IMG/VR virus record: IMGVR_UViG_3300035670_011224
Span: 1-64,000 of that record
DNA length: 64,000 nt
Reading direction: 5' to 3' (one strand)
DNA from: a virus
The translations under genes were made by a program, and so were the position numbers. The notes beneath the pieces were generated by a model that worked only from the letters and a program-made list of their open reading frames with translations, was not told where the DNA came from and made no database searches. Shown piece after piece: positions 3 to 54,294 of the stretch (within the stretch, counting starts at the first letter, position 1; each line of letters starts with the position of its first letter).

Positions 3-3000
3 TCTGAATTTTCGGTTGCTGATTCTGTTATACAAGCAAATAAAGCTGCTCAACAGCAAATAATACTACAAGAATTATTAGCACAAAAAGCTAAAGAAGC
101 TAATCAGTCTACAGCAGAATATATATCCGGACTACAACAAGAAATTGATGCTAGATCAGTTGATATTATGGAACAAGATTTTAGCAATGCTTTAGGGTCA
201 GAAGCTCCGTCGGTACCAGAAGCAAGACAACAAGCACTTAATGAAACAATTAGTTCCAGAGGACTACAAGCATTTAATGTTCCTAGTTTAGGAGAAGGTA
301 CTGATTTAAATAGTATTATTGCACAAGTATCAAAAAACAATGACCTTGCCGCCGAGGCAGACAAAGCCAAAGCAGCAGCTGCTACAAGAGCGGCTGACGC
401 ATTAGAACTCATGAGGCTCAAAGCAGAACAAAACGGACAAACACTATCACAGTATCAAAGTAATCTTAAACAAAATATTTTGAATCTTGCTAAAGATCTA
501 CAAAAATCAGCTCCTGGTAAAATTAGTAAGTTTAATGAAACTGCTGTTAGTTTACGAGGAGATATTAATAGTGGAGATGAAGATAAAATTACTAAAGCTA
601 AAGAACAATTAGCTAAACAATTAGCTGATCTTGGAACAAATCTTGAATCGTCTCAAATAACAACTATAATTGATGATTTAGCAGCAAGTATGGGAGATAC
701 CGATAAAACATTTGTTGATATTATTAATAATTCGCAAGAATTACAAGAAGCATTCAAACAATCATCAACAGATGCAACAGCTTTACAATCAGCAACCCAA
801 AAACTTAGCGTTAGTTTGGGTATTCCTGAGGAAGCTTTGCAAAAACTAGCAACTTCTGCCGAATTAGCAGCAAGTAATCTTTACGACAAGAACGTAGCAG
901 CTGCTCAAAAAATGGCGTCTACATTGGCTAAAACTAGTTTAGCTATTGGTGGAATAGGATCTGTCATATCGTCTACTATCAAATCATTAGGAGGGTCGGA
1001 AAATAAAGATACTGCTGTTCTTAGTGCTGGTATAAGTAGCGTAGCTAGTACCGTCAGTACATTAGGAGCTTCTCTAAGTCAATTACCAGGAGGTATAAAA
1101 TTTGTTTTAGATACTATGCAAGGAATGGGAGGCGGTATAGGTAAAGTAGCCACTAGTTTAGCTCCTAAGATAATGGGTTTTATAGCAAGTCCTATGGCTT
1201 TAGTCGGAGCATCGTTAGCGGGTGGGGCAGTTGCCATAGCAGCTGGTTTTAAAGAAGCATATAATGCTGCTAGAGAGTTTGATTTACAAACAAGTCAAAA
1301 AAGAGTAGACGAAAGTTTAAGTAGAGTAAGCGATCTATTTGCACAATTTGAAAAAGATACTACTAATATAGATTTTCTTAGTAAAATTGATAGTGAATTA
1401 AGTTACGGATCCAAACAGTTGATGAAAAATCTTGAAACTGATTTAAAAGTTCCAAAAGCAATGTGGGCTAATCTATTAGATCTTGGTGGTGGTTCGCAGG
1501 CTGCTGGTAGAAGTATGATATTGGAAAAAGAAGGTATTGGAAGCTATATCTCATCTGTATTTTCTAATAATGCTCAACAAGCGGCAATAGGCAGAATTGC
1601 ACCAGAAAAGGCCGTTGAAACAGCTCAAAAGGTTCAGCCACAAGGCCAAAATATATTAAAACAGTTCGAAAATAAACTTCGGTCCGGTATGGACATGGAT
1701 ACTATTCTTGCTGAATTAAATGCTGCTGGTAATCAATCAGCTGAAGTTCTTGCTAGAATGAATCCGAAAATCAATGAACAAATTATGTTGATAGAGAATG
1801 ATAGAAACATATCAGAACAACGCAAAAGCGCTATTATCAAAGAAATAACAGCATCCGAAGCTAACAGAGTTGCTAGTGTTAATATGAAAAATAGTATGAA
1901 ACAAATTGAGTTTGAGAAACTAGGTAGACAAACCAATAATTTTGCAACAAGTTTGGAAAGAATGTTTAATGGGATGGAACAGGCCATAAATAAAACAGAC
2001 TTTGAATTAAGTAAACTTTCTCGTTCAGCAGAATTATCAGCAGCAGCTTTAAGCGGAAATGCTAAGGCTGGAGATGTTATGCTCGACAGTATTAATGTGT
2101 TACAAAATCCAAGAGCATATTCAGGACAAGAGCAAGGAGCAGCTTTTGATCAAGCAGCAGGATTTTTTGGATCTCAAGCTGATCTTGTTAGGCCACTATT
2201 GGGACTTGGAGATAAGTTAGAAAGTACGGTAATGAGTACTATCAATCGTTCTGTTCAGGCTAATCCAACAGGTAGCACAGAAGGAATAGCGTCAAATATT
2301 AGAAATGCTCTAGATGCTCAATTAAAAGATTTAGGATTACCTCCTAATATAGCAGATAAGTTAGCAGGACAAACTAAATTAGCTTTTGAAAAGATAAGAA
2401 GCGAAAGAGGCGGAGAAGATACAAGATTAAACTTTGATCAGATAACAGAAGAAGTTCCCGCTTTTGCAAAAGCTATTAGCTCAGCACAAAGAGCACAAGA
2501 ATTAGCTGTTAAAGCTATGGAATTTTATCAAAAGAATCTTAATGAGTATGCTCAAGCTATGAATCAAATGGTTGATTTTCAGATAGAAGCTAATAATAGG
2601 ATGAGAAAAGCTAGCGAGGTTCAAGCTAAAGGAGCTATGGAACTAGCTAAAACATTAGGGCAAACAGTATCTTTAACAGAAACAAGAAATGTAACAGAAG
2701 CGCCAATAAGATCTATGACAGGAGGATTAACAAATCCTGGTGATATTGGTAGAAATGTTGTGAATTTAGAAGCTCAAAGACGAACCTTACAAACAGCTGC
2801 TGATAATGCTGGCAATAGAGGTCCGGCCGCAAAAGACGAATTCGCCGTTATGCAAAATCGACTAAGAAACACTAACGTGGCTCTTAGAGAAAATATTGAT
2901 GCATTAAAACAAATGGCGGATAGTACCGATTTAGCACAAGCAGCTCTAGCTAAAATTCAAGAGGTACAAGCTAGAAGACAAGCCGGAGCTAATCTTATAG

Positions 3001-6000
3001 AAAAAATGGTAACTTCTAATCCGGAAGAATTAGCCAGATTAAATGCTTCAATAGGACGATTAAATAACAATATGAGAGGCGGATTAAATGTTGGTAGCAC
3101 AGCAGAACAAAGAGGTGAAAGTTTACAGGCTTTTAATATGCTTGCTCCACTATTAGGAGATGGACAGCAACAAAATGAATTAAAAGCTAATGTGTTAGAA
3201 AGTATGCTTAAAGAAAGCGGTGTTGGTATAGATAGTACTTTTCAATCAGTTTTGGACAGTTTAAGAGATCCCGAAGGTGATCCTCAAATGGCAGAAGCTA
3301 TTAGTGTTTATAGAGAAAGTTTAGCTAAACAAACACAAGCTAATACTGTATTAAGTGAATTACAAAGAATGATGAGCGAGAATACCGCAGAAATAGCAGC
3401 AACAAAACTAGCAACAGCAATTAGTGGTGTTACTTTAACTTTTGAACGACAAGTATTTAATGATATAAGAGACAATATACAAAAATTAGTGGAGATCGTA
3501 GGTAAAAGAGACGAAGAAGGAAAAGACCCTATTCCTGCTCAAAACAAACGCAAAGGAGGTGTAATATACGCATCAATGGGCAGGGCTATTGATTTTGCCC
3601 CAAAAGGAACTGATACTGTTCCTGCAATGTTGACTCCCGGAGAGTTTGTGGTTAATCGAGCAGCAACAAAAGCTAATCTTCCATTATTACAAAATATTAA
3701 TAGTAACAAATATAGTAATGGGGGAAAAGTAAGATACTACAATGAGGGAGGATATGTTTTAGCTGGAGGAGTAGCAACTGCTGGAACCGGAGGAGGTGAT
3801 GATACGCCTAAAATAGAAAAAGCTATCGAACAATCTACAGAAAAACAACAAAAAATTAAACAAAATCAAAAGTCGATTACTATTCCTATTATTCCAGATA
3901 CGGCCAGTTATGCTCCTAAGCTTATATCGATGGGAAGTATCCTAAATGCAACTCCAATAGCCACACAAGAAGATGGCAATAATACAGGCATAGGCGTTAC
4001 ATATCCTGTTATACAAAAATTAAAAAATAGAGGCGCTTTCGATATGGGTATGTTTAAGGATAACTATTATAATAATCCACAAGGTCAGCTACCAAATCCA
4101 CCCATATATCAACCTAATTTATTTTATGGAGTTAAATCCATTAAAGATATTCTTAATAAAGAAGCTGATATTGATGTATCCAAAGCAACAACACCACTGA
4201 ATAGATTATTTGATCTTTTAAGAACATTAAGAAAAGGACCTAAAAATAATGATTTAGAGATATTTCTTGCTCGTAATCCAAAAATGTTATCTAATTTACC
4301 AAAATTACAACCGAAAAAAAATTTGCAATGGGATGGATCGAAACCAATAGGCTGGGGTGAAGAAATTTCTAATACATTAATATCTCCACCTATACCATAT
4401 TGGGGATTATTTTTAGATAATAATCAACCAATTTCTGCAGGAGGATATGGTGGTATCGGATATGATATAAAAGGAGCCATAACAGATAGTCCACTTGCTT
4501 TTGCTCCTGGTTTGGAAAAGACATACAGTTTTAAACTACGAGGAGATCAAAAAGCATTATCAGAAAATATGGAAGAAAAAAAGAACTATTTGATGAATAC
4601 GCTTGAGATAATTAAAAAGGTTCGAGGTGTACTTAAAACAGCATCGTCTAATAACGTATGGAATAAAAAATACCAAAATACAGAGTTGGGACAGTTAGAT
4701 CAAAAAGCTAAAGATGATTATAAAATTAATATTGGTGAAGATGATCCTATGGAGGATAATATAAAAGAAGATTCTAGTGATAATATTAAGGTTAAAGAAA
4801 CTTTAGCTAAACTAGATGCGTTATATAACAATAAAATATTTAGTGCAAGTATTGAGGATCCTGATTATGTTAAATTACCAACAACACTATATAATATGCC
4901 AAAAGATAAATGGGAAACTATTCAATCAAATCCTAGTTATAAGCAAGCAGTAGATGATAAAACAGCCATGTCCGATTGGGATTATGCTATAAGTATTCTG
5001 CCTATAGTTGATGGTCAACCAGACATCGGAAACAAACGTCAATTTCCATGGTATACAAATGATACAAAATTAGATCCTAATATTTTTAAATCAGCAGAAA
5101 AAGAATTTAATACACAAGCTGGAGATGCTTTATTTAAGGTAACAGAAACACCAATTGGATCTGCTGGTGGTCGCTTTTTAATTCCAGCAAAAACTATAAC
5201 AGGTAACCTACTAAATACAACATCGCGAAACTATGGTGGGCCTTACGAATATACTTATATTCCACCAAAAGCCGGAGATCCAAAATTAAATCCATTGTAT
5301 AATACAGAGAAGCCGATACTGTATACTGGAACAAATCTTAATGAATATTTAGGCGCTAGATTACCATCATGGAATATTGAGACAAGACAAGAGGTAGCCC
5401 CAACTATAGAAGACCTTGGGACTTTGCCAAGTTTAATATTGAACGGAAACCCAATAGGAGGCGTAAGTAGAATCGATACCAGTCAATTTAGTATAGTTAA
5501 AGATTTACCAGAAGATATTAAACCATATATTATACCATCTAGTGATGGTATGACTCCTATTTTAGAACGTATGACTATTGATGCTACAGAATACCAAAAA
5601 GCAAGAGACGAAAGAATAAAAGCTAAAGAAATGCAGTTGACTAAAGAAAGAGCCTCAAAAGTTACAGGAGATAGATTCAAAAAATTATCAACAGCAGAAA
5701 GCGCATTTACAACAGCAACAAGAACAAAATTAGCACAACAAATACAGGGATATGCATCTACTGCATTGAGTGCCTACGGAATCGGAGTTCCCAGCATAAC
5801 AAAAATAGAAGATGTTGGAGGTGTTGCTGGATATTTAAATAATTATCTCAAAAAAATAGATAATAAATCTCCTCAATGGGCAGAAATTAACGCTTGGAGA
5901 GCACTATTTAGCGAATTATATCAACCAGGAGGTATAGGTAAAGATGCAGAAAGCAGAATACCAGCCACTGTAGCATATTTGAAAACTTTTGGTGTCGATG

Positions 6001-7316
6001 TTGAAAATGGAACAGTTAACGAAGATGGAATTAAACAAATTATAGCAAGAGAAAAAGCTATAGCTATTAGTAAAAATGTCAGTGGAGAAATACCAGAAGA
6101 TTCATTAAAAAGTTTAGATTTGGAAGCATCAAAAACAAAGCTATATACTGTTGATAAAGATGGTAATAAAACAGAAATAAAATCTGATAATATAAAAAAT
6201 CCTAAAACTATTCAGGATGTTGAACGTATAGGATTAGCTCCAGAAAATTTATTTGAAAATAGCGAAAAACGACAGAGCTATCTTAAGGTTTTATCCGATT
6301 ATTTTACTAAAAATAATTTATCAGAATTTGCAGCAGCAGCAGAGGGTCTTAAACCATGGTACACGGCGCAAGACACTTTATTAAATGCTGGATTAAATAA
6401 TGATATGTTACAAGGCAGTTTAGATGCTCTCAATGGTAATGCCCCCAAACCAGATACTACGGCTGGTGGTGGTAGGAATTTAGAAGATCCTGTTACAACT
6501 ATTGGGAATAAAGATAATTATATTCAGCATCATAAGTTATTAACCGCAGATAAATATGGCGAATTACCAGACGCTAGCAGAATGAAAGATTTAATAACAG
6601 TTAGAATAGAAGAGTCTAAAACAGAAGAACAAAAACCAGAAAAACAACAAGCTCTTGCTCGTGGAGGTATAGTATACGCTAGCAATGGGAGCTTTATTAA
6701 TTTTAGACCAAAAGGAACAGATACTGTTCCGGCCATGCTAACTCCTGGTGAATTTGTTATTAACAGAGCTTCGACTCAAAAATACAGACCAGTCCTTGAA
6801 GCTATTAATAATGGGAATTATAGCAGAGGAGGTATTGTAAACTATCTTAGCGGTGGTGGCTATTTGCCACTATACAGAGAAGGCGGAGGAGGAACACCGG
6901 CCGGATCCGGTTTCGATTTTACCTCTTTTATGAACAATATTATGGTATCTGTTTCTAGTAGTATAACAGAAGCTTTCAATAAAGCTGTTTCGGCACTAAA
7001 ACAACCAAACAATAGCTCTGGTGGTGTATCTAACAGTGGCGGTGATATTTCTAGTATTGATAATTTTGTTAATAGATTAAATAATATCGCCAATATACTT
7101 AGTAATATTTATATACCTCCACAAATTACTATCACAGGAAAACACGATGTTGTTGTTACTATCAACGGAGACACAGTTTTGAATCAATTACGACCAGACA
7201 TGGCAGGAATAGCCATATCTGCTATAAGATCCGCTTTCCAAGATCTAAAAGCTAAAAATCCAGAAAATAATACTATCAACTTTGATATAGATATTAACCC
7301 TAATGATATTGCATAG
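3..7316 (+). CDS. Tail tape-measure protein (5' end outside window)
   Basis: Sets tail length and lines the tail lumen before DNA ejection. The frame is open to the left edge (codons run from base 3 with no stop), so the Met at 168 is internal and the true start lies outside the window. At least 2,437 residues are visible. The first half is Ala/Gln/Glu/Lys-rich and helical, with hydrophobic stretches around 1020-1110 and 1170-1250, as usual in tape measures. The motif GTDTVPAMLTPGEFV, typical of phage tape-measure proteins, occurs twice (about 3556-3760 and 6661-6870), each time followed by Gly-rich GGYV/GGYL sequence. The roughly 2.9 kb between the copies encodes a different, Pro/Tyr-rich region that I do not recognise. 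At the usual ~0.15 nm per residue the tail would be several hundred nm long, if most of the chain acts as ruler. Fibre genes follow directly, 6 bases after the stop. Confidence 0.9.
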   Translation, partial: SEFSVADSVIQANKAAQQQIILQELLAQKAKEANQSTAEYISGLQQEIDARSVDIMEQDFSNALGSEAPSVPEARQQALNETISSRGLQAFNVPSLGEGTDLNSIIAQVSKNNDLAAEADKAKAAAATRAADALELMRLKAEQNGQTLSQYQSNLKQNILNLAKDLQKSAPGKISKFNETAVSLRGDINSGDEDKITKAKEQLAKQLADLGTNLESSQITTIIDDLAASMGDTDKTFVDIINNSQELQEAFKQSSTDATALQSATQKLSVSLGIPEEALQKLATSAELAASNLYDKNVAAAQKMASTLAKTSLAIGGIGSVISSTIKSLGGSENKDTAVLSAGISSVASTVSTLGASLSQLPGGIKFVLDTMQGMGGGIGKVATSLAPKIMGFIASPMALVGASLAGGAVAIAAGFKEAYNAAREFDLQTSQKRVDESLSRVSDLFAQFEKDTTNIDFLSKIDSELSYGSKQLMKNLETDLKVPKAMWANLLDLGGGSQAAGRSMILEKEGIGSYISSVFSNNAQQAAIGRIAPEKAVETAQKVQPQGQNILKQFENKLRSGMDMDTILAELNAAGNQSAEVLARMNPKINEQIMLIENDRNISEQRKSAIIKEITASEANRVASVNMKNSMKQIEFEKLGRQTNNFATSLERMFNGMEQAINKTDFELSKLSRSAELSAAALSGNAKAGDVMLDSINVLQNPRAYSGQEQGAAFDQAAGFFGSQADLVRPLLGLGDKLESTVMSTINRSVQANPTGSTEGIASNIRNALDAQLKDLGLPPNIADKLAGQTKLAFEKIRSERGGEDTRLNFDQITEEVPAFAKAISSAQRAQELAVKAMEFYQKNLNEYAQAMNQMVDFQIEANNRMRKASEVQAKGAMELAKTLGQTVSLTETRNVTEAPIRSMTGGLTNPGDIGRNVVNLEAQRRTLQTAADNAGNRGPAAKDEFAVMQNRLRNTNVALRENIDALKQMADSTDLAQAALAKIQEVQARRQAGANLIEKMVTSNPEELARLNASIGRLNNNMRGGLNVGSTAEQRGESLQAFNMLAPLLGDGQQQNELKANVLESMLKESGVGIDSTFQSVLDSLRDPEGDPQMAEAISVYRESLAKQTQANTVLSELQRMMSENTAEIAATKLATAISGVTLTFERQVFNDIRDNIQKLVEIVGKRDEEGKDPIPAQNKRKGGVIYASMGRAIDFAPKGTDTVPAMLTPGEFVVNRAATKANLPLLQNINSNKYSNGGKVRYYNEGGYVLAGGVATAGTGGGDDTPKIEKAIEQSTEKQQKIKQNQKSITIPIIPDTASYAPKLISMGSILNATPIATQEDGNNTGIGVTYPVIQKLKNRGAFDMGMFKDNYYNNPQGQLPNPPIYQPNLFYGVKSIKDILNKEADIDVSKATTPLNRLFDLLRTLRKGPKNNDLEIFLARNPKMLSNLPKLQPKKNLQWDGSKPIGWGEEISNTLISPPIPYWGLFLDNNQPISAGGYGGIGYDIKGAITDSPLAFAPGLEKTYSFKLRGDQKALSENMEEKKNYLMNTLEIIKKVRGVLKTASSNNVWNKKYQNTELGQLDQKAKDDYKINIGEDDPMEDNIKEDSSDNIKVKETLAKLDALYNNKIFSASIEDPDYVKLPTTLYNMPKDKWETIQSNPSYKQAVDDKTAMSDWDYAISILPIVDGQPDIGNKRQFPWYTNDTKLDPNIFKSAEKEFNTQAGDALFKVTETPIGSAGGRFLIPAKTITGNLLNTTSRNYGGPYEYTYIPPKAGDPKLNPLYNTEKPILYTGTNLNEYLGARLPSWNIETRQEVAPTIEDLGTLPSLILNGNPIGGVSRIDTSQFSIVKDLPEDIKPYIIPSSDGMTPILERMTIDATEYQKARDERIKAKEMQLTKERASKVTGDRFKKLSTAESAFTTATRTKLAQQIQGYASTALSAYGIGVPSITKIEDVGGVAGYLNNYLKKIDNKSPQWAEINAWRALFSELYQPGGIGKDAESRIPATVAYLKTFGVDVENGTVNEDGIKQIIAREKAIAISKNVSGEIPEDSLKSLDLEASKTKLYTVDKDGNKTEIKSDNIKNPKTIQDVERIGLAPENLFENSEKRQSYLKVLSDYFTKNNLSEFAAAAEGLKPWYTAQDTLLNAGLNNDMLQGSLDALNGNAPKPDTTAGGGRNLEDPVTTIGNKDNYIQHHKLLTADKYGELPDASRMKDLITVRIEESKTEEQKPEKQQALARGGIVYASNGSFINFRPKGTDTVPAMLTPGEFVINRASTQKYRPVLEAINNGNYSRGGIVNYLSGGGYLPLYREGGGGTPAGSGFDFTSFMNNIMVSVSSSITEAFNKAVSALKQPNNSSGGVSNSGGDISSIDNFVNRLNNIANILSNIYIPPQITITGKHDVVVTINGDTVLNQLRPDMAGIAISAIRSAFQDLKAKNPENNTINFDIDINPNDIA
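3556..3760 (+). repeat. Tape-measure motif copy 1
   Basis: Encodes GGVIYAS, then PKGTDTVPAMLTPGEFVVNR, a stretch ending in LLQNIN, and a GG-K/Y-GGYV tail. It matches copy 2 at 6661-6870 in order and spacing at protein level; the DNA has diverged mainly at third positions, so the duplication is old. Confidence 0.85.
6661..6870 (+). repeat. Tape-measure motif copy 2
   Basis: Encodes GGIVYAS, then PKGTDTVPAMLTPGEFVINR, a stretch with LEAINNGNYS, and a GGIVNYLSGGGYL tail. Paralogous to copy 1. The two copies bracket about 2.9 kb of unrelated coding sequence. Confidence 0.85.
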
Positions 7317-7322: not shown

Positions 7323-10300
7323 ATGAATAAAATTACTAAAATATTTAATAACATAGGATTTCTTTGTTCTGTTAGTAATAACACTTTTATTCAGCATAAT
7401 GCTATTAATGGCTATAAAGCATTAGAACAAGATACTATTGGATATTTTATTCCATACTTAATTCGTAATATTAAAGATGGATACAAATGGGAAACCGGAG
7501 TTGGCGAAATACAGTATAGTGATGGTTTATTAGTAGTTAAAAGAATAGAAGTTACAAATTCATCAAATAATAACAAACCAGTTAATTTTATTGGTAATGA
7601 AAATGAGTTTTATCTTTTTGTAAATAATAATAATTTTAATAGTAGTTTTAATAATGTTATTGTTAAGAACGATCATTTTACTATCGATAATGTAACAAGC
7701 ATTTATTTGGTAGATAACAATGATAAAAATATTGATTGTGTATTACCAGACCCTAAAAAAGCTAGAAATATTGTTATAGATATCAAAGCACTGTCTTCTG
7801 CTCACAACATAATAATTAGAGATTGTGATGGTTTAATTTTTGAGTCAACAAGCACATCAACCAGGCTGGTTTGCGATGGACAAGCATGGTATTCTCTTAA
7901 TCAAAATGATCAATTAAATTTTGCTTCGTTATCAGATGACTCTTTTTCGTCGTTAAGTAATCCTGGTGGAGCAGCATATTCTTTTCAATATAATGATGGA
8001 TCCAATGGCTTATTAGGCTCCGAATTGTATTGGAGTTCTGGAAATACTAATAAATTATTATTAGGATCAAGCTCAGAATCTTTGGCCCATACTGTTATAC
8101 CAACTTCTGGTTCAGCAAACACAATATTTAATCAAGATTTGCAACCGAGTGATTTTATAGTTTATGGCAGTGGGCAACCATATCGAAATCTTTTCTTTAG
8201 TTATGATGGTAGGGTTGGTATAAATATTCCATCAGGATCCAGACCACAAACTATTTTTCATGTTGTAAATTATAGTTGCAGTGAAATATTAAGACTGGAA
8301 AATAGAACAACTTGTCAACCAGCAAAATTAACAGTTTATCACAAACCATCATCACTTAGTAATGGTGGAGTATGTTCTATATTAAACTTAGCTGGAAGAG
8401 ATGTTAATAATAATCAAAAAGATTATGCAACCATATATAGTATAGCGTCTGACACTACCAACGGTAATGGTGGGTTGGTATTGACTGTTAGTTCTGGTTC
8501 GAGTCAACAGCCACTAGTGTCCGGAAGCTTAGATAGCATTAATCTTGGTTATAGTAATAATAAAAGAATAAATATTAATAATAATGGTAATGTAAATATT
8601 TCTGGTGATAATATTGATATTAGATCATCTACCCTAAGTACTATTGGAACATCTAATACATATATAACGCTTAATAATACCAATAGAAGCATATCTTTAG
8701 ACTATAATTCGCTGCTTTTGGGTACGGGATCCATCACCAGCAACGGCACCTTATCTGCTAATAATATTAGTTCTAATACCATAACACTACCCAATATAGC
8801 AACTAGTAGTTTGTTGACCATATCTAATAATAAGACTATTGTTCCAGTTAATGGTATAACAGTTAATAGTGGAAATAATGGCTTAATCTTTAATAATATA
8901 TCTGGTAATAAATTTTTAACCACAGACAGTACCAACAATCTTGTTGGATTATATGATTTAGATGATTATTTTCTAACAGAAAAAGATATAACCTGGAACA
9001 AATATACTCCAAAAATAGCTAGTGTGTGTTTAAAACAAGTTATTTTATCTGAGAATACTCCAATAGAAGAATTTAGTGTTGGAGATCAGGTAGAAATTAT
9101 TACTAGTAATAGTTCTATATATAGGAATATAACATCCTTAGTAACCAACGAAGCTTTCATAACAGAAATAATTTTAGATCAAAATGTTTCTACCAATGAA
9201 ATTAATAATATTACTATTTCTTCAGTAACAAAGGGTGGCTATTTAACAATTCAAAAATTTTCTTCTGAATCTTCATCGGATAGCACATCGAATATTCTTA
9301 GCGTAAGACCAAAAACGGAGACAGTCTTTAATACTGCTCAAAAAGATATTGATTTTACAGTTTATGGTGCTGATATTAGACCAGCACTAAAAGTACATGC
9401 TAGTGTAGGATCTATCACAACGGTTTCTGGAACATATTATAATTTTGCCACTAAAGACGATAATATAAAACCTATTGTAATAAATACTGTTGGTAGCGGT
9501 TTAACTAATAATTTTAGCACAGCTAATTATAACTATAGCTTAACTAATAATTTATTTAGTGGTATACTATCTTCTGTTGGTACTAATGGTAAGAGTAGTT
9601 ATTATGGAACATATGATCAAAATGGTAATGTTGCAGAGTGGATAGAGTCCGATATTACGGATGGTATAGTAACATTAGAATATGCTGCTGGCGGATCCTA
9701 CAGAACACCTGTTACTGGCAGCGTATCTCCGGATGCTGATTCTATCTATTTAAGAGGAATACAGCAATTTCCGATTATTTCCGGATACGATTACGTTGGT
9801 TTTAGAGTAGCTAGCATTAGTAATCTAGTTGATAATGCCAATATATCAAATAGTTCAAGTTTAAATTTAAGTTTTGTAAATATTATTAATGAGAATAATA
9901 TAGCAGATACAAAGGATCTGTACTTACAATTTTCTAACAATACTTATCAAAATATTATTATTCCAAATCTTGGTGTTGTGGATAAAAATTATCGTATAGG
10001 CAGATACGAGGTTACTAATAAGCAATATGTTCAATTCTTAAATAGTGTAGCAACCACTGTTGGAGATCCTGTTACTACCGGATTATATAATCCAAATATG
10101 ACAAATGCTCAAAATGGTGGTATACTAAGATCTACTAATGGTTTAGTATTTGAATATTCAATAAAACCAAATATGGAAGATAAACCTGTTAATTATGTTA
10201 ATTATATTAATAGCTTGCAATTTATTAATTGGTTACATAATGACGCTCCAGAAGAAGTTAGTTCAAATGATGCAAATAGTATTATTAATGATGGTGCATA

Positions 10301-10892
10301 TACAATATTATTAGCTGGTAGTACTTATTATATAACAGCTAATAATAATAGAAAGTATTTCTTACCCAGCTTTAACCAATGGCATAAAGCTGCGTATTTC
10401 GAATACCAGGAATCAATCTTTGTTAGTGGTTCACCAGCTATTACAATGGGTACTTTTGAGCCGTATGTTGTAGCAACAGAATTGTTATCTGAAAACAGTA
10501 CCGATCCACCAAAACAAGTTTTAGCTAATTTAACTGTTAGTGGTTGGTTGGTGGTTGATAAGATTTTTGTAAGAGACGGTACCGTTAGATCCTCATTGAA
10601 AGATATTGGATTCGTACCAGATCTTACCGCCGACACTATAGAACAACAAGCGGCTGGCGTAATACCTCCGTTAAGCACAGATGTCGGAGGTATCAATAGC
10701 GATACATTCTGGAATAATAATACTTCATCGAGTTGGGGTGGTGGAGGTGGTATATATGGCGAAACTAATCCACCTCCCATTGTTAATGCGGATGGAACAG
10801 AAAACGAAGGAGATTGTGAAGATGAAAATTTAATTGCTACAAATAATATTCCGCATTGGTGTCGAGACGATGGTAGACCCGGTTTATTCTAA
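7323..10892 (+). CDS. Large tail-fibre protein with FGE-like (C-lectin fold) halves
   Basis: Virion fibre or tail-tip protein of 1189 residues. The N-terminus follows the pattern of phage fibre N-terminal domains (NGYKALEQDTIGYFIPYLI, then KWETGVGEIQYSDGLLVVKR, then VNFIGNENEFYLFV). Asn/Ser-rich beta-structure follows, with a VGINIPSG...IFHV segment near residue 300 that recalls fibre VGIGTxxPxxxLHV motifs. Residues ~757-834 match the C-terminal half of formylglycine-generating-enzyme/sulfatase-modifying-factor domains (YGTYDQNGNVAEW, GGSYR, YVGFRVAS); residues ~889-1029 match the N-terminal half (YRIGRYEVTNKQYVQFLN, KPVNYVNY, FINWLHN, LPSFNQWHKAAYF). The order is therefore inverted. Family members often bind or modify ligands; here binding is the likelier role. 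The tail is Gly-rich. A module near 9222-9420 recurs in the next gene. Function as a fibre is inferred. Confidence 0.75.
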   Translation: MNKITKIFNNIGFLCSVSNNTFIQHNAINGYKALEQDTIGYFIPYLIRNIKDGYKWETGVGEIQYSDGLLVVKRIEVTNSSNNNKPVNFIGNENEFYLFVNNNNFNSSFNNVIVKNDHFTIDNVTSIYLVDNNDKNIDCVLPDPKKARNIVIDIKALSSAHNIIIRDCDGLIFESTSTSTRLVCDGQAWYSLNQNDQLNFASLSDDSFSSLSNPGGAAYSFQYNDGSNGLLGSELYWSSGNTNKLLLGSSSESLAHTVIPTSGSANTIFNQDLQPSDFIVYGSGQPYRNLFFSYDGRVGINIPSGSRPQTIFHVVNYSCSEILRLENRTTCQPAKLTVYHKPSSLSNGGVCSILNLAGRDVNNNQKDYATIYSIASDTTNGNGGLVLTVSSGSSQQPLVSGSLDSINLGYSNNKRININNNGNVNISGDNIDIRSSTLSTIGTSNTYITLNNTNRSISLDYNSLLLGTGSITSNGTLSANNISSNTITLPNIATSSLLTISNNKTIVPVNGITVNSGNNGLIFNNISGNKFLTTDSTNNLVGLYDLDDYFLTEKDITWNKYTPKIASVCLKQVILSENTPIEEFSVGDQVEIITSNSSIYRNITSLVTNEAFITEIILDQNVSTNEINNITISSVTKGGYLTIQKFSSESSSDSTSNILSVRPKTETVFNTAQKDIDFTVYGADIRPALKVHASVGSITTVSGTYYNFATKDDNIKPIVINTVGSGLTNNFSTANYNYSLTNNLFSGILSSVGTNGKSSYYGTYDQNGNVAEWIESDITDGIVTLEYAAGGSYRTPVTGSVSPDADSIYLRGIQQFPIISGYDYVGFRVASISNLVDNANISNSSSLNLSFVNIINENNIADTKDLYLQFSNNTYQNIIIPNLGVVDKNYRIGRYEVTNKQYVQFLNSVATTVGDPVTTGLYNPNMTNAQNGGILRSTNGLVFEYSIKPNMEDKPVNYVNYINSLQFINWLHNDAPEEVSSNDANSIINDGAYTILLAGSTYYITANNNRKYFLPSFNQWHKAAYFEYQESIFVSGSPAITMGTFEPYVVATELLSENSTDPPKQVLANLTVSGWLVVDKIFVRDGTVRSSLKDIGFVPDLTADTIEQQAAGVIPPLSTDVGGINSDTFWNNNTSSSWGGGGGIYGETNPPPIVNADGTENEGDCEDENLIATNNIPHWCRDDGRPGLF

Positions 10893-10905: not shown

Positions 10906-13458
10906 ATGTTATGGTATAATATTCTTAGTCCCAGAAACTGGTCTGGAGTAAGATTACAAACAGGAAATAAAAAAGTAGATGGAGTATATTATAATCTATT
11001 AAGTAGTAAAGATGTTAGTCTAGCTGCTAGTGGAACAATGTACTTAGTAGCAAATAGCGGAATTAGATTAATAAGTCCATCTTTTGTTGATGTTAGCGGA
11101 CTAAGAAGTATAAGTCTTAGTTCTGTAGAATATTCCAAAATAGATAATTTAGGTAATCCTTTGCCTTTCTATCCGGGTGCGACTGGCGGTATAGCTGTAA
11201 AAATTGACGATGATAATATTTTGGCAACAGATATCATAACATATGATAGTGGAAATAATATTTTAAAATTCCCATCCGCTAATCCTGGCGGTCCTTTATA
11301 TGTTGTTCCGCCACATTATGAAGCCGGAGAAATAGTTGATTTGGCAAATCTTTCTTCATTTGATGGGCTTATACTAAAACCAGAAGAAACAGACGCTTCT
11401 GAACCACCAGTCATAACACCAGCAACCATAACAGCAAATACTATTATTTATGCTAATTCTGGAATAAATCTTGGACCAAATAATAATTTGGATTCTTATA
11501 GAGGATTCATACTCACACATGCTGGCTCAGGAGAACCAGCCGAATGGAAACCGGCAGTTTATCTAAGAGAAAATTATAGTGTCGATGCACCACTAGAAGG
11601 ATTAGAAAGAATAGGTATAAACTGGATTAGATATCCTAAAAGACCGGCTTTAATAAGAAATGGTCGAATATATATTTATAAGACAAACAGATCATGGTCG
11701 CCGTATCCGGCGATAGGATCTGATACAGAAATTCTTGCGAATGAATTGGGTACCGGTTCAGACACTTTATGTGTTGAAACTGCTATAGGAGATATTATTG
11801 TAGGATATACCAAATTTGCTTTCGTAGCGAAAGCTTCTAGCCAAGAAAAGATCGAAGCAGAATTTAATTTTGAGGAAAGTTTAAAAACCGTAAGCATAAT
11901 CGATCCAAATGGCCCAATTGATGAAGGTTCAGTTCCGGCCTACGAAATAGAAATAGCTCCCGAAGAACCAGAAGGAATAGGCTCAGGAGCAATAGGAGCA
12001 AATGTGTTCTTATTTTCTGTTACAAAAGGCGGCTATTTCCCTATGCAATTGGAACCAAATGCTACAGACAATATAACATATACTAACAACCAAAATGAAG
12101 AAATAGATGCTATTGGCACAATAGAAACACAAGATGATGGAACTCTGTTAGAAACACCTATTACTATTCCATTAAGATTTAAACCTTCTACAATTAATAA
12201 TCTTAGTATAAGACCAAGTATCCATACTGCTTTTAATATGCTAGGAGAGGATATAGATTTTGTTATTTATGGAAAAGAAAATACAAACTTTAATAACTAT
12301 AATAGTATCTTTGATCTTAATGATAATTTTCTACCACAAGGACTAACACCTGTTTTCCGTGTGGACGCTAGTGTTCCTAATAGCGTTAGTGGATCACCGA
12401 GTGGCGTAATATATAGTAAGTTTATAGATAGAGCCAAAACACATCCGATAGGCTGGGGTTTTGATCGCGCCGGTAAGGTTTGTATAAAAACTAATGATCC
12501 GTATAAAATGGGATCAATACCAAGTGGTAATGGAGAATTGATAGCTTATGCCGATGTGACGATTAGTGGTCATACATATAGTAAAAGTATTATTACAGAG
12601 GATATATTTCTTAGGCCAAAACCAGCTGTAGATAATAAAGGGAAATATATAAGAAATGCTTTATTAACAGTAAATTCGGAAGGTCAGATAGTATCAAGAA
12701 CTCCAAGAGTTAATCCTATTATACCAGACGCTCCGTCCGGCGTGGCCGGAATAGCTAATGGTTATGGTGGAATTGGAAATAATGAGCACTCTATTCGTTG
12801 GGACGCGCCAGTTAGCGATGGTAGATCAGCAATACTTAATTATCTAATACAACTATCTCATAATAATGGAGAAAACTGGATAGATGTACCTAACGAAACA
12901 ATCGGTGTTCTTAGGGGTTTTAATACTCAAACATCGGCTACAATAACACAGGTTGCTGCCCCAGCTATTTTTAGAGTAGCTGCACAAAATGGAGTTGGTA
13001 TTGGTCCTTATTCTGAGGCTACCGATATCACTTTTGTGAGCAACACGGGTCTTCCTCAGAGTCCAACAAATTTTACTGTTACTAGAAAAATAGATACTCT
13101 TACAATATCTGATGTTGATCTATCTTGGACACCGACTAATTCATGGGGATCATATAGTGCTAGTGGATATCTAATAGAAGAATCAACAGATGGTGGATCT
13201 AGTTGGTTTAATATAGCGTTTATTCCGTACAATGAAGACAGCTCTCATAATGAAACAGGCCTGGATGGTATTACAAATTATCTGTATAGAATTAGCGCTA
13301 TTAACACTAATAATGGTAAAAGTGCATATAATTATGTATATACTACAGGTGTTTTATTAGAAGATCCAGACTTAGAAGAAGAAGAGAATAAGAAAAATGA
13401 TGAATTGACTAATTTTGATTTTGGTGTTATATTATTTACTGGAATATGTGCTGTTTAG
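10906..13458 (+). CDS. Fibre/tail protein with two fibronectin type III domains
   Basis: 850 residues, preceded by a strong ribosome site (GAGGAG about 7 bases before ATG). The N-terminal ~600 residues are beta-rich and not recognised except for a module (TKGGY..., NNLSIRPS, DIDFVIYG, VFRVDASV) that is paralogous to one in the upstream fibre gene. Two FN3-like domains follow at residues ~607-705 (starts PDAPSGV, contains IRWDAP and PYSEAT) and ~716-812 (LPQSPTNFTV, VDLSWTP, STDGGSSW). FN3 domains are frequent in phage tail and baseplate surface proteins, where they bind carbohydrate or act as spacers. The C-terminus is acidic (LEDPDLEEEENKK). Probably a virion surface protein; exact position unknown. 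Confidence 0.7.
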   Translation: MLWYNILSPRNWSGVRLQTGNKKVDGVYYNLLSSKDVSLAASGTMYLVANSGIRLISPSFVDVSGLRSISLSSVEYSKIDNLGNPLPFYPGATGGIAVKIDDDNILATDIITYDSGNNILKFPSANPGGPLYVVPPHYEAGEIVDLANLSSFDGLILKPEETDASEPPVITPATITANTIIYANSGINLGPNNNLDSYRGFILTHAGSGEPAEWKPAVYLRENYSVDAPLEGLERIGINWIRYPKRPALIRNGRIYIYKTNRSWSPYPAIGSDTEILANELGTGSDTLCVETAIGDIIVGYTKFAFVAKASSQEKIEAEFNFEESLKTVSIIDPNGPIDEGSVPAYEIEIAPEEPEGIGSGAIGANVFLFSVTKGGYFPMQLEPNATDNITYTNNQNEEIDAIGTIETQDDGTLLETPITIPLRFKPSTINNLSIRPSIHTAFNMLGEDIDFVIYGKENTNFNNYNSIFDLNDNFLPQGLTPVFRVDASVPNSVSGSPSGVIYSKFIDRAKTHPIGWGFDRAGKVCIKTNDPYKMGSIPSGNGELIAYADVTISGHTYSKSIITEDIFLRPKPAVDNKGKYIRNALLTVNSEGQIVSRTPRVNPIIPDAPSGVAGIANGYGGIGNNEHSIRWDAPVSDGRSAILNYLIQLSHNNGENWIDVPNETIGVLRGFNTQTSATITQVAAPAIFRVAAQNGVGIGPYSEATDITFVSNTGLPQSPTNFTVTRKIDTLTISDVDLSWTPTNSWGSYSASGYLIEESTDGGSSWFNIAFIPYNEDSSHNETGLDGITNYLYRISAINTNNGKSAYNYVYTTGVLLEDPDLEEEENKKNDELTNFDFGVILFTGICAV

Positions 13459-15012: not shown

Positions 15013-16209
15013 ATGATTATTGATAAAAAATTTTCTATAGTCATATATGCGGGTTCTAAACCATTGAATCTAATGGAAAAAGATACCGAAATTGCTAACA
15101 ATCCGATTAAATCCAACGAGTGGGACCAGATTATGCAGGCTATAGACAGTATTCATGGGGCGCAACAGAACGACGAATCTATTCCTATTTTTTGGACAAC
15201 AAGATATCCTTTAAATGATAAATTTGGAAATATATTATATAGATATGCTCCAAATCCAGCCAGCACACTTAAAAAACTCGAATCCAAATCAGCATATTAT
15301 ATAGTTCTTAGAGATTCATCTTTAGCTCCTCTTAAAATACCTTCTCATGGTACATTGGTTCTAGGTTTTGGAGACGCAGAAGATCTACCTAGTGTTGATC
15401 CACCTATAGCAGATAAGGTTCTTAAAGATTCGTTTCAATATAATTTTAGGCCACAAATTGTTAATTTAAGACCATACGAAACATATTCTTACGAATGGAA
15501 AGTTGTTGCTAGTAATTGGCCAGTTGTAGCGACTCCGTCTTCTGGAGAACTTAAACCAGCCACATCTACCGGATTTATCAATGCGTCTATATCATTTTGT
15601 CCAACTACCGGAGTATGTTCAGATAATACGCTTTCTTTCGTGCTGCCAGAAGAAGGAACAATAGAAAAATTAGAAGATCCTTACGCAACACTACAACTAT
15701 CTGTTAGATCCAAATCTTTCGAAGGGGCAGAATCTTTAAGTGATCAATTCACCGTAAGATGTGATGATTGTTTACCAAAACCAAGATTAGTGCTTGAAGG
15801 TATCGGAGAGCCTTATATAGAGGAGCAAGACAGCGACAATGCTCCAATACCCTCGTATTCTTTTAATCTTTCATTTACTAATTTAGAATTAGGTCAAACA
15901 TATAGTTATGTTATTAATACCATAAAAAATGAGTGGCCTTTCTATTTTGCGACTCCGACCTCCGGAACTTTTACTGTAACATCTACTAAAATTGAAGATA
16001 ATACAATTAAAAATACTATGTATTTTTGTCCGACTACAGGATTATGTCCACCAAACAATAGTAGTATCCCAGCTTACAATATTCCAACATATCCAAAGTT
16101 TTTATCAGACGAACCAATATTTACTACTTATAATATAATTTTACAAGCCTCATTAATTAATTATGATTATGTTAGTGATCCGTTCGAAATCTCATACAAG
16201 AGAGTATAA
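15013..16209 (+). CDS. Ig-like Cys-module protein A (two modules)
   Basis: 398 residues. The first ~135 residues form a separate N-terminal domain (MIIDKKFSIVIYAGSKP, SNEWDQIMQAIDSI, FWTTRYPLNDKFGN) that may anchor the array to the tail. Two copies follow of a ~120-residue module shared with the next three genes: YSYEWKVVASNWPVVATPSSG, then FCPTTGVC, then CDDCLPKP (copy 1, ~residues 140-258); and TYSYVI...EWPFYFATPTSG, FCPTTGLC (copy 2), which stops before the expected C-x-x-C strand. The module resembles Ig/FN3-type sandwiches with two conserved Cys pairs. Function unknown; probably extracellular virion decoration or adhesin. Confidence 0.65.
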   Translation: MIIDKKFSIVIYAGSKPLNLMEKDTEIANNPIKSNEWDQIMQAIDSIHGAQQNDESIPIFWTTRYPLNDKFGNILYRYAPNPASTLKKLESKSAYYIVLRDSSLAPLKIPSHGTLVLGFGDAEDLPSVDPPIADKVLKDSFQYNFRPQIVNLRPYETYSYEWKVVASNWPVVATPSSGELKPATSTGFINASISFCPTTGVCSDNTLSFVLPEEGTIEKLEDPYATLQLSVRSKSFEGAESLSDQFTVRCDDCLPKPRLVLEGIGEPYIEEQDSDNAPIPSYSFNLSFTNLELGQTYSYVINTIKNEWPFYFATPTSGTFTVTSTKIEDNTIKNTMYFCPTTGLCPPNNSSIPAYNIPTYPKFLSDEPIFTTYNIILQASLINYDYVSDPFEISYKRV

Positions 16210-16238
16210 TTCCGTAAACACTTATAAGAAATATTAAC

Positions 16239-17516
16239 ATGATAAACCATTCAATATATTCAACAGAGCCATCAGCACAAACACCGGCTCCTCCAGCTTC
16301 TTATAATGTTCCAACAAAATTTACTATTAATAAGCTTATAAAAACAATAATATACGAATACGAAATAGAATTAGACGGCAATCCTGGTAACTGGCCTGTG
16401 GTTGTTGTTCCTAGAAGCGGAGAATTTATCGCAACATCCAGAACAAAAGAAATAGATGCATTGGTAATTTTTTGTCCAAATACTGGGGTTTGTGATTCTG
16501 GCAATCCGGATGTTTTACCATTTAATCTAGATTATAGTTGTGGACTACAAAATAATTTATTATTTACTAATCTTAGAGTTAAGGTTAATGAAAAAAATAG
16601 TAATGAATATATATATAGTAATACCAGACATATAGAATGTACAGATTGTTTGAAACCTATCGATATGTCTTTGCTAGGCGTTAATCTAAAGAATAATGAA
16701 AATAATAATTCTTTAATGTTAACAGAAGCTACTGAGAATGTTATTAAGTTACAAACAAAATTTTTAAATGTTATGCCAGGACAGCAATACTCATGGTCTT
16801 TTAGTAGAGTTACTTCTAATTGGCCAGTTACGGTGACTCCGGCGTCCGGAACTTTTACAGCTTCTAATCACGAGTATGTTGCGGATAGTGTTTTAACTTT
16901 TTGTAGAGATTCTTCATGCTCTGGTATTAATGGATATATGACATATAATACTAGCAATTTTTCAAATGACTATAAGTTTATTACCTTAAATGTTACAATA
17001 AATAATAATGATCGTTGTCATTTTAATAACAATACTAAAACATTATCAGTATATTGTAATGATTGCATACCAACACCAAAAGTCTCATTCGGATCAGAAA
17101 ATATTCTAACAACAAAACCTTGCACAGACATTAGTGTGTCGCTTTCTGGACTAGAGTCATACAAAACATACTTGTATAATTTTAGCACATACCGAGCAAA
17201 TTGGCCAACATTGATTAGTCCAATATCTGGTTCATTTACTACTTCTTATAACCATGATACATCATTACCATTTAAGCTATCTTTTTGTGGTTCAGAAGCT
17301 ATTTGTTCTGGGGATGCTAATTTATTGAGCTATAATATAGATTATAATAAACTATATACTAATACAGAATGTGATAAATTTGCTTATATTAAATTCAATC
17401 TCAGCACTCAAAATGAACCCGGAACAAATCTGCTAGTAAATAATCTGCTTAAAATACACTGTAATGATTGTATTAATACAAGCCCTAATAATTTACCAAC
17501 AATCTCTAAGAATTAA
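16239..17516 (+). CDS. Ig-like Cys-module protein B (three modules)
   Basis: 425 residues, three modules with the shared landmarks: NWPVVVVPRSGEF / FCPNTGVC / CTDCLKP; NWPVTVTPASGTF / FCRDSSC / CNDCIPTP; NWPTLISPISGSF / FCGSEAIC / CNDCINTS. The Cys spacing (C-x4-6-C then C-x2-C) is kept through the array, which points to paired disulfides or metal binding. It starts 29 bases after the previous stop with no strong ribosome site, in a different frame. The C-terminus (NNLPTISKN after the last CxxC) corresponds to the first strand of a further module whose remainder begins the next ORF. Confidence 0.65.
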   Translation: MINHSIYSTEPSAQTPAPPASYNVPTKFTINKLIKTIIYEYEIELDGNPGNWPVVVVPRSGEFIATSRTKEIDALVIFCPNTGVCDSGNPDVLPFNLDYSCGLQNNLLFTNLRVKVNEKNSNEYIYSNTRHIECTDCLKPIDMSLLGVNLKNNENNNSLMLTEATENVIKLQTKFLNVMPGQQYSWSFSRVTSNWPVTVTPASGTFTASNHEYVADSVLTFCRDSSCSGINGYMTYNTSNFSNDYKFITLNVTINNNDRCHFNNNTKTLSVYCNDCIPTPKVSFGSENILTTKPCTDISVSLSGLESYKTYLYNFSTYRANWPTLISPISGSFTTSYNHDTSLPFKLSFCGSEAICSGDANLLSYNIDYNKLYTNTECDKFAYIKFNLSTQNEPGTNLLVNNLLKIHCNDCINTSPNNLPTISKN

Positions 17517-17530
17517 CCTGGAATTCTATT

Positions 17531-19468
17531 ATGAAGAATCATAAATTTATAACATCTTTTAAGAACCTTATGCCATTAACAACGTATTCGTATGTTGTAG
17601 AGTCATTAGATGGTAATTGGCCAGCGTCTGTTTCTCCAGCAAGTGGTTCTTTTTCTACATTAACAGGATCTATGGATATAGAAACAGAACTAAGTTTTTG
17701 TGCATCTTCAGTATCGTGTTCCGGTGTTACTCTATTAGAATACGAATCAGATAGTTGCTCATCCGATTCTATACCATTTGCTGATGTTAGAATAGCTTTG
17801 AGCTTACCATATTCAAATATTAAAGTATATGGAAATAAAGAACATTTTGAATGCGAAGAATGTTTACAAACACCGATTATATTAGTTCAAGAAAATGTTA
17901 ATTTAGATAATATTACATCTAATAGTATTAATTTTCCTATTGGAATCTCGGGATTAAATTATTATTCTACATATAATTATACTATAGAATTAGTTAATAG
18001 TAATAGTCTGCTTGGTTTCACAGATCTTTCTGGTACTATAACCACAAATGCAAATAGTTTTGAAGCTATTAATCCCAAAATGATTTTATGTGAAAATAGT
18101 GGAGAATGCTCTGGTTATTCTACACTAGGATCTATTTCTAATTGTTTAGACTCTTTGCCTTATGCTGATATTAGAGTAAAGATCACATCAGACTGTTTAG
18201 ATTATCCTATTTATAGCAATAGAGTTCATATTCAATGTGATTATTGTTGGCCAAAAATCAATTTCGACTTATTGAATGACACAGCTATTATTACTGATAG
18301 TAATAGTTTTGATCTAAATGTAACTATTAGCAACCTAAAGCCATACCAAACATATAATTATTCTATTACTAATATAGAATCTAATAATATTATGGCCTTT
18401 GAACATTTATCTGGATCTTTTATTACAGATGAGGAGACATCGTACGATCTTATTAATAAAATAATATTTTGTGATGTTAGTGGATACTATAGTAACTATA
18501 ATATTATTAATAACAATAATGCTATATGTGATCTTGATAAATATGTAAAATTCGATCTAACACTAGATTCTGATTGTTTAGACAATCCTGTAACAAGTCT
18601 AACCAATAAGATAGAATGTGATAATTGTTTACCAAATAGACACGACGTAGTATTAGATTCCAAAAACATATATCAAGCTGATTCTGCTATAGATATTAAT
18701 GGAACTCTTGATAATTTATTACTAGATCACACATACTCATATGAGTTTGAATCAAAGGGAGGTAATTGGCCTATTAAAATATATCCGGTCTCGGGATCTT
18801 TTATTGCAAAAACACAAACAAAAGAAATTTTATCTCAGGCATGGTTTTGTTGTCCATCAGGATCTTGTGGATCGACACCGTTTACTAAAACATATGATTC
18901 TTTAAGATATAAGACCAATTACTTAACACAAGACATAAGATTGAAAGTAACAGACACATGCGCTAATCATTTAGTATATGATGATAGAACGATTTTTATT
19001 CAATTAGCTGATTTGGAAATTACGCCAACAAATGATACATATAATGTTATCTTAGATAGCCAAACAAAAGGATGCTACGATTTCTCAATGAAAGTTAATA
19101 ACTGCATAAATACACACTCTTATACGTATCAATATCATGCTATTGATGGAAATTGGCCAGTTATTTTGAGCAATGTGTCTGGTTCTTTTACAAATCAACC
19201 GTTAATTCATAATATTAAAACACAATTAACATTCTGTCCTTCAACGGGCGTGTGCAATAATCAATCCAATGTTCTAACGCCTCCTAGTGTATTAAGTTAT
19301 AGTTCTTTACTAAATAGTACCTGTAATAATAGCAAATTTATTAGCTTGCAATTATCTGTTACTAGCAATTGCTATCCTAATCAAAAAGCATTTTTCAGTG
19401 AGCCCATTACGGTGTATTGTGAAGATTGCATACCTCTACCTTCTATCACGCTAGATATTGAAAAATAA
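17531..19468 (+). CDS. Ig-like Cys-module protein C (five modules)
   Basis: 645 residues, five modules. Landmarks include NWPASVSPASGSFS / CEECLQTP, LLGFTDLSGTITT / CDYCWPK, IMAFEHLSGSFIT / CDNCLPN, NWPIKIYPVSGSFIA, and NWPVILSNVSGSF / FCPSTGVC / CEDCIPLP. It opens directly at the second strand of a module (KFITSFKNLMPLTTYSYVV), so the first strand is missing or supplied by the preceding protein's C-terminus. It ends with PSITLDIEK, a first strand without its module. The stop (TAA, 19466-19468) and the next gene's ATG at 19478 are in the same frame. A phage-surface role is inferred from context. Confidence 0.65.
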   Translation: MKNHKFITSFKNLMPLTTYSYVVESLDGNWPASVSPASGSFSTLTGSMDIETELSFCASSVSCSGVTLLEYESDSCSSDSIPFADVRIALSLPYSNIKVYGNKEHFECEECLQTPIILVQENVNLDNITSNSINFPIGISGLNYYSTYNYTIELVNSNSLLGFTDLSGTITTNANSFEAINPKMILCENSGECSGYSTLGSISNCLDSLPYADIRVKITSDCLDYPIYSNRVHIQCDYCWPKINFDLLNDTAIITDSNSFDLNVTISNLKPYQTYNYSITNIESNNIMAFEHLSGSFITDEETSYDLINKIIFCDVSGYYSNYNIINNNNAICDLDKYVKFDLTLDSDCLDNPVTSLTNKIECDNCLPNRHDVVLDSKNIYQADSAIDINGTLDNLLLDHTYSYEFESKGGNWPIKIYPVSGSFIAKTQTKEILSQAWFCCPSGSCGSTPFTKTYDSLRYKTNYLTQDIRLKVTDTCANHLVYDDRTIFIQLADLEITPTNDTYNVILDSQTKGCYDFSMKVNNCINTHSYTYQYHAIDGNWPVILSNVSGSFTNQPLIHNIKTQLTFCPSTGVCNNQSNVLTPPSVLSYSSLLNSTCNNSKFISLQLSVTSNCYPNQKAFFSEPITVYCEDCIPLPSITLDIEK

Positions 19469-19480
19469 GGAATTAAAATG
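19466..19480 (+). other. In-frame TAA between two Ig-module ORFs
   Basis: A single TAA separates the ORFs at 17531 and 19478, which share a reading frame; nine bases (GGAATTAAA) lie between TAA and ATG. AAGGA just upstream of the ATG is a plausible ribosome site, so separate initiation is the simplest reading. Reading through the stop would join first strand and remainder into a module within about two residues of the normal length. Confidence 0.6.
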
Positions 19481-22400: not shown

Positions 22401-22504
22401 TTGATTATACTCAAACATTAATTAATTTTGAATTGACACATACTAATACCAACTTTAAAGTTTATGATAGCATAGGATTAGTATGCAACACAGGATCATG
22501 TTAA
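19478..22504 (+). CDS. Ig-like Cys-module protein D (eight modules)
   Basis: 1008 residues, eight modules of about 120-130 residues, the last divergent. Recurrent landmarks are GLKPYxxYxYxF, then NWP or NHxxGFExLSGSF, then FCESSGYCN, then a D-x-C-L-x-x-P turn, then CDNCLP. Modules 4-6 are most alike (HLIGFEQLSGSF, HMIGFESLSGSF, HLVGLKELSGVI), suggesting recent internal duplication. The protein begins at the second strand (MYHHNLKTNIAGILPNQ) and ends at CNTGSC, the terminal C-x-x-C equivalent. Likely an elongated virion surface fibre or stalk. No enzymatic motif is visible. Confidence 0.65.
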   Translation: MYHHNLKTNIAGILPNQLYNFVVEAINSNWPVRTFPASGSISSLTNTATINTDIYFCEDLNCSNYDVYNSGTYQIGYDPFADIRLRITSDALSVPIYTNVTKVICSGCAAIPTISPQLSWFELKGTNESTINVDISGLKPYTTYSYRFLDIGSNYPIDLQLVSGTFTTSNNKSYSLRTDFAFCGYEDCDNVVIGSGYSNKIGQEQCDKYYTNLQISLDSSYFIEPIIGPKITVECDNCLPKPVITLPDSIDLDSITLNNFNLITNITGLKPNSRYDYSFQHMGGNHSVLLDNVSGYFNTDSAGTDIDLITPMIMCESSGLCGSTNVLGTIQNGDCDKNKNVKLRLKLDSDCLDYSIYSSIITVNCDNCLPIPNLVVPTSKISLLGVGDEPNIYNSSININNLKPYSTYSFEIVDFKSNHLIGFEQLSGSFTTNNETTHTLNNSIIFCESSGYCNNYQTTGTINSDRFANILNTSFRVKLNSTCLPAPVYSDPVLIDCEYCLPYIDIDIPSEVTLTQASGNIYSLNVPISPLKPYSDYEYSIKNITTNHMIGFESLSGSFNTENSEAFNLTNKVVFCESSGYCNSYVKTGSMNSDSCNNKLNASFKIELNNDNLYSPVLSRLIKINCDNCIPQINIQTPSKATLTSTNIYPMNIVLTNLKPYSEYSYSFENIKSNHLVGLKELSGVIKTKTNTTANISNSLVFCESSGYCNTYYTSGSINSNACNNLLSTSLQVKINSSCLSSPVISDIVEVDCNNCIPILGASLPSTTVNLTSTNLVSITGTVSGLRPLQSYDYYFTGDNNWPILLDNISGSFVAKTSTENIVSKVLFCYPSGNCSNENGLLPYSLSSAAQKILNNNVLFGKLKLNVKSSSCNSTVYSSNVSTINCKDCLPCVRYADVQISGSPVIALDNNCCIGQKLLSVNVTNAVPSEKYIYSFSSTSGVGVNLLQFNPQTGEMYFGSGGAGTINSICAIDLIDYTQTLINFELTHTNTNFKVYDSIGLVCNTGSC

Positions 22505-50080: not shown

Positions 50081-50108
50081 ATTATACCAAGCGGCAGCGT
50101 TTTGTCAA
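50081..50108 (-). promoter_or_regulatory. Sigma70-type promoter of ssb
   Basis: On the minus strand TTGACA (50103-50108), a 16-base spacer and TATAAT (50081-50086), both perfect. The -35 box overlaps the last codons of the polymerase C-terminal gene. Predicted start around 50074 gives a ~35-base leader carrying the AGGAG ribosome site. This suggests host RNA polymerase with a housekeeping sigma factor transcribes ssb. Confidence 0.75.
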
Positions 50109-50120
50109 GATCTTGGTATA
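50083..50120. promoter_or_regulatory. 9-bp inverted repeat straddling the ssb promoter
   Basis: TATACCAAG (50083-50091) and its exact complement CTTGGTATA (50112-50120) are separated by 20 bases, 29 bp centre to centre. The repeat brackets the -35 and spacer and one arm overlaps the -10. It could be an operator for a dimeric repressor, or form a hairpin in the polymerase transcript. A shorter palindrome CAAGATCTTG lies within the right side. Confidence 0.5.
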
Positions 50121-51718: not shown

Positions 51719-51723
51719 AAATA

Positions 51724-52425: not shown

Positions 52426-52600
52426 TTGTCTCCACTACTGTGTTTCCTGGGAAAAAAGTCCTTTGATTACTATCTGTTGCAACATGACAATTAACGCTTC
52501 TGCAACAGCTTACTCTAACTTCTTGGATCTTAGTATATTCTACATTATTAGCTTTAAAGTTTTCGCCCACAGCAACTTGGTCTAATGTTTTTGTTAACAT
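52418..52600 (-). CDS. Small Cys-containing protein between polymerase pieces
   Basis: 60 residues: LDQVAVGENFKANNVEYTKI followed by VSCCRSVNCHVA and FFPGNTVVE. It resembles small phage proteins with the order VGxxF...YxKI...CC...F.P.T.V, of unknown role. Good ribosome site (GGAG seven bases before ATG). Its ATG overlaps the middle DnaE stop by one base (TAATG), and its end overlaps the exonuclease start, so all are coupled. Not likely to be part of DnaE. Confidence 0.55.
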   Translation of the reverse strand: MLTKTLDQVAVGENFKANNVEYTKIQEVRVSCCRSVNCHVATDSNQRTFFPGNTVVETNG

Positions 52601-54272: not shown

Positions 54273-54294
54273 ATTGCCTCCGGAATTATACTGT

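Follow-up and report, generated by a model that had tools for sequence, protein, structure and literature searches.

The 64,000-nucleotide stretch of viral DNA analyzed here (positions 1 to 64,000 of IMG/VR record IMGVR_UViG_3300035670_011224, referred to as the window) encodes a known fold in a circularly permuted form that is conserved and associated with phages. With a probability of roughly 0.8, the region concerned is a true circular permutant of the fold shared by the formylglycine-generating enzyme (FGE) and the C-type lectins, its halves forming one domain that serves phages as a plug-in binding unit and not as a formylglycine-generating enzyme. In the proposed arrangement, the native C and N termini would be joined via a short linker and the new termini would be located in the long loop that separates the helix NEWYKAAYY from the region YGTYDQNGNV. 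The two halves would fold together as one domain, and the module would be reused on various proteins, among them those of the tail region, and occasionally form arrays where P/T-rich linkers act as spacers. Circular permutation, one of the two options offered by the first-pass annotation, is favored by profile matches that merge into one, by the same order of halves in 130 phage modules, by ORFs of 311-327 aa consisting of little more than the module, by a single predicted domain and by covariation between the halves.

The module belongs to a protein of 1,189 residues encoded by a single ORF (7323-10892, plus strand) located directly 3' of a tape measure gene (168-7316, plus strand; PHROG 25241, tail length tape measure, E 1.6e-14) and followed by the gene of an fn3 protein (10906-13458). 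This succession of tape measure, permuted-domain protein and fn3 protein is kept in most relatives among L001-L019, and the product is probably a tail-region protein of the adhesin or fiber type. The record of this large, uncultured phage, 152,429 bp in length, encodes three permuted modules. The two others show the same swap of halves and belong to proteins of 487 aa (record 80060-80950, minus strand) and 525 aa (record 77999-78919, minus strand).

A swapped-order FGE-like domain, with the C-terminal half preceding the N-terminal half, had been reported at 9592-10408. Every motif quoted in its support is present in the ORF in the order given, and the region was rightly placed but slightly narrow: a continuous alignment to a duplicated canonical template extends the full module to about 9498-10475 (plus strand, residues 726-1051). 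The native C-terminal half comes first (9498-9818, plus strand; SVGTNG..YGTYDQNGNVAEW..GGSY..GFRVAS) and corresponds to canonical positions 196-287. The native N-terminal half comes second (9858-10475, plus strand; a lead strand, YRIGRYEVTNKQY, KPVNYVNY, WLHN and FLPSFNQWHKAAYF) and corresponds to canonical positions 7-196. In profile-profile comparison with canonical domains the FGE match reaches both halves, with E 2.8e-23 for the C-half and E 1.6e-73 for the N-half, values well outside what chance would give. The Pfam FGE-sulfatase profile (PF03781) matches the protein in two stretches (E 6.7e-9, 36.2 bits against a curated cut-off of 23.3), one of which, residues 886-1025, lies in the native N-half. 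In the genome search, positions 157-196 of this profile are matched at 9543-9665 and positions 34-124 at 9978-10400. Since the former are encoded before the latter, the order of the halves is swapped within one open frame, and the PF03781 domain of the window protein departs from the canonical order of N-half before C-half.

The permutation was tested with hhalign by comparing the permuted alignment (A1, a profile of 87 domains) to the canonical alignment (A3). Against a single template, query positions 147-352 align to canonical 7-196 and query positions 27-133 to canonical 196-287, and the two pieces abut. When the template is written twice, one alignment is obtained (query 27-352 to 196-492) with a score of 681, close to the sum of the separate pieces (518 and 169). 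Such merging of abutting pieces on a duplicated template is the standard sign of a circular permutation, and at profile level the arrangement is therefore identified as one. The canonical fold is cut at a single site, within the loop that follows NEWYKAAYY...YATQSN. One solved chain, 5aoh, is likewise matched by both halves in exchanged order, though at the level of sequence profile only.

The joint was initially estimated at about 55 residues. A stretch of this kind exists, but it is mostly native N-terminal lead, the true joint comprising about 13 residues (9819-9857, plus strand) that are left unaligned between the two profile matches. The assignment of GVVDKN to the usual N-terminal lead holds, as LSFVNIINENNIADT...LGVVDKNYRIG aligns with canonical MTMVTVGNPGNAADG..YGAVSYSYQIG. 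An insert of about 18 residues within the lead (9912-9965, plus strand), visible as a gap in the profile alignment and missing from the canonical template, is predicted to form a hairpin; the corresponding strands of the model (167-170 and 176-179) are without canonical counterpart.

Structure prediction had been suggested as a check. AlphaFold2, supplied with residues 700-1075 and 87 sequences, returned a single domain with a pTM of 0.83 and a core pLDDT above 90; a canonical phage control (L052) reached a pTM of 0.91. The secondary structures of the permuted model and of this control agree at 81% of 282 aligned positions with no helix/strand clash, compared to a mean of 46% and a maximum of 58% for a slid-string baseline, and each canonical helix or strand of at least 4 residues is present at the homologous place in the permuted model. 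A joint AlphaFold alignment of the permuted and canonical modules of L052 in one chain was rejected because MAFFT aligned every N-half to the second module. Foldseek matched the canonical control to TvpA1, FGE, EgtB and PvdO at a probability of 1.00, and found no known structure in PDB and BFVD for the permuted model (best E 0.39). Foldseek being sequential, permutation handicaps the search; yet the larger contiguous N-half could have matched alone, and this miss is the main gap in the case for a permutant.

The two halves are coupled. Inter-half mutual information was calculated apart for the permuted and canonical sets, and 9 of the top 60 pairs are common to both, the shuffle control giving a mean of 2.4 with none of 150 shuffles as high. 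The strongest pair associates the Glu of LPTE with the Arg preceding GG. Both residues are present in 71 permuted modules, neither in 50, and 8 are mismatched; the canonical modules show 96, 13 and 16, respectively, and all these counts lean on related sequences. Among 16 independent contrasts on the best tree, Arg changes in the same direction as Glu in 11 and in no case in the reverse direction (sign test p 0.001); a stricter version restricted to well-supported branches leaves only 3 contrasts, too few for a test. In the window module both partners are changed, the Arg position to Ala (codon 9687-9689, plus strand) and the Glu position to the Phe of LPSFNQW (codon 10371-10373, plus strand), positions occupied by Arg and Glu in most modules. 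Since the pair covaries in permuted as in canonical modules, the sequences suggest that the halves pack on each other, most likely in the canonical manner, be it within a chain or between chains.

We infer that the domain closes within one chain. It is rather unlikely that it is instead a segment-swapped oligomer, where the C-half supplied by one chain of a fiber trimer complements the N-half of the next, so that only subunits together make the domain whole. This possibility draws on the fact that phage fibers are usually trimers and on the covariation, which is equally compatible with between-chain contacts; indeed neither monomer prediction nor covariation can separate these from contacts within a chain. 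It also has a precedent in the NC1 domain of collagen IV, a likewise rearranged member of the C-type-lectin-like superfamily listed as 'Segment swapping with subdomains of domain' (PMC3779223), although in NC1 it is segments that are exchanged between subdomains, whereas here an FGE domain is circularly permuted. However, the monomer closes confidently over 376 residues, which would be hard if the halves were placed independently. In addition, the joint is short and constant, with a median of 9.5 residues in model coordinates between the C and N1 profiles described below across 130 permuted modules, and isolated modules are also found at either end of proteins, attached to P/T-rich linkers. 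The single-chain permutant is consequently preferred, and its rewiring may let halves pair across chains as well, thereby interlocking the fiber subunits.

Homologues were searched in either order, as the first-pass annotation had proposed; the permuted order was found in phages and the complete bacterial modules listed are canonical. Scans of IMG/VR returned 27 loci with the window domain and 77 with the domain of the 487-aa protein, and two alignment-based scans gave 77 and 80 overlapping loci. The domain was divided into N1 and N2 profiles (native N-half) and a C profile (native C-half) whose order was read along every ORF. Viral contigs contain 130 distinct permuted modules (C-N1-N2), grouped in 104 clusters at 70% identity, together with 35 canonical modules and 3 modules displaying a second cut (N2-C-N1). 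Most of the canonical modules on viral contigs look bacterial, with a PEP-CTERM tail that is present in 29 of 35 canonical ORFs and in no permuted ORF; clear phage canonical modules are those of L052, L100 and L103. Every complete module among the best 80 bacterial loci listed is canonical. A profile search (E 1e-62) of 1,618 bacterial genomes from five phyla, in which scoring was limited to the top few candidates of each genome and rare cases could be missed, found no permuted module, solely N-half matches and two seams of tandem canonical domains. These seams account for the spanning matches in one Planctomycetota and one cyanobacterial genome (L112, L175). Similarly, an apparent second-cut module in the bacterial locus L122 is really a tandem array ended by the contig edge. 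Among the isolated phages of INPHARED, no relative was retrieved with either query. The presence of more than 100 diverged permuted versions in uncultured phages and of none in the bacterial genomes searched thus denotes a conserved rewired fold and not a fluke. In a broad group of uncultured phages the permuted form predominates, and annotation assuming the canonical order splits or misses the module.

This distribution bears on a further explanation, namely that the halves are remnants of neighboring, truncated canonical domains that form no single folded unit. Tandem canonical arrays do exist in bacteria (L112, L119, L161), a phage protein of L052 carries a permuted and a canonical module side by side, and duplication followed by loss is a plausible route to permutation. 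However, 217 ORFs (redundant loci included) contain exactly one C-half then one N-half and no other FGE part. Moreover, the order is kept in 104 clusters and the inter-half coupling is preserved, so that this explanation is largely refuted and very improbable. The source is an uncultured virus record, but an assembly or gene-calling artefact can practically be dismissed, as the whole span is one open frame free of stops and the domain of the window protein recurs in the same order on three other, independent contigs at 100% identity and on many more at 30-60%.

Common descent appears to account for the conserved permutation across a large group of uncultured phages. A tree placing the sampled permuted modules in one clade is not rejected (p-AU 0.54) and surpasses the free tree obtained by 1.55 log units. 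The second cut, located between TEDGAY and KYWIP, occurs in L022, L089 and L319, and both of the second-cut modules placed on trees fall among the permuted modules. In L090, L093, L096 and L097, about 260 residues separate the fused native termini. A serially permuted lineage, cut first in the YATQSD/ANY loop and later in the TEDGAY/KYWIP loop of those three loci, with the inserts of ~260 residues acquired in others, is a speculative scenario that deserves some, if limited, credit. The family offers a testable example of the rewiring of a binding fold, with cuts at two sites, and of its repeated use as a modular display unit.

No cysteine is present in residues 726-1051 of the window protein, and only 12 of the 130 permuted modules have at least two cysteines in the C-half. 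The module, devoid of the active-site cysteine pair in this half, is therefore not a catalytic formylglycine-generating enzyme, and is best read from its sequence as a putative non-enzymatic receptor-binding module. The most variable segment lies in the C-half between GNVAEW/GNVxEW and GFR, with an entropy of about 3 bits. Retroelement-linked proteins diversify this same part of the fold, and a host-surface ligand would most likely be bound via this segment; receptor or glycan binding and a surface location are probable. The proposed link to hypervariable phage receptor-binding proteins stands only as regards the common fold. A DGR origin was nevertheless rejected, no RVT_1 reverse transcriptase match being obtained in the 152-kb record, which is possibly incomplete.

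Compared to the FGE-sulfatase/SUMF1 family (PF03781; e.g. human FGE 1y1e, 5aoh and Treponema TvpA1 2y3c), both halves match by profile and the predicted secondary structure is that of the canonical control, whereas the halves of the phage module are exchanged, the catalytic Cys pair is missing and sequential structural matches are lacking. Among the matches listed, the closest canonical relatives are PEP-CTERM proteins with FGE domains from Planctomycetota, Verrucomicrobiota and others; these are canonical and usually PEP-CTERM-tailed, unlike the permuted ORFs. The DGR C-lectin-fold variable proteins share the fold class, and the phage module varies most in the C-half, ahead of GFR, but it is permuted and its record yielded no reverse transcriptase. 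The open literature searched contained no natural example of a circularly permuted FGE/C-lectin fold, and no FGS domains with this fold were reported in a survey of jumbo phages (PMC7824862).

Several other features were noted. At L033:9727-13354 (minus strand), large glycosyltransferase genes, a 978-aa ORF with two GT types and an RgpF-like ORF, adjoin two permuted-domain genes, and glycosylation of the P/T-rich linkers by their products is possible. The window protein at 22538-25411 displays long TPTNTPTQT repeats, in the linker style of the permuted-domain proteins, followed by repeated 13-residue units and a BspA-type LRR. Four ORFs in a row at 15013-22504 are built from repeated, possibly fn3-like units of the type SNWPVxxxPxSGxF...FCxxxGxC.

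LAGLIDADG-related sequences were observed in or next to other genes. On the minus strand of the window (50105-55593), the gene for DNA polymerase III alpha is split into three ORFs encoding the PHP and the start of the alpha domain (54295-55593), the rest of the alpha domain (52600-53484) and the finger and HHH (50105-51718). The first break coincides with a LAGLIDADG endonuclease ORF (53454-54305), the second with an exonuclease ORF (51724-52425). An intron, an intein or a fractured gene are all possible; a self-splicing intron was searched for in Rfam without a match. At L033:17828-19774 (record 81828-83774, minus strand), a 648-aa ORF can be read as a papain-like peptidase in which an intein-like insert carrying a LAGLIDADG domain splits the sequence near NSWG. 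Finally, a PD-(D/E)XK nuclease ORF of the window (55590-57578, minus strand) contains a LAGLIDADG-like stretch around which PHROG terminase large subunit models match, perhaps due to a shared insert.
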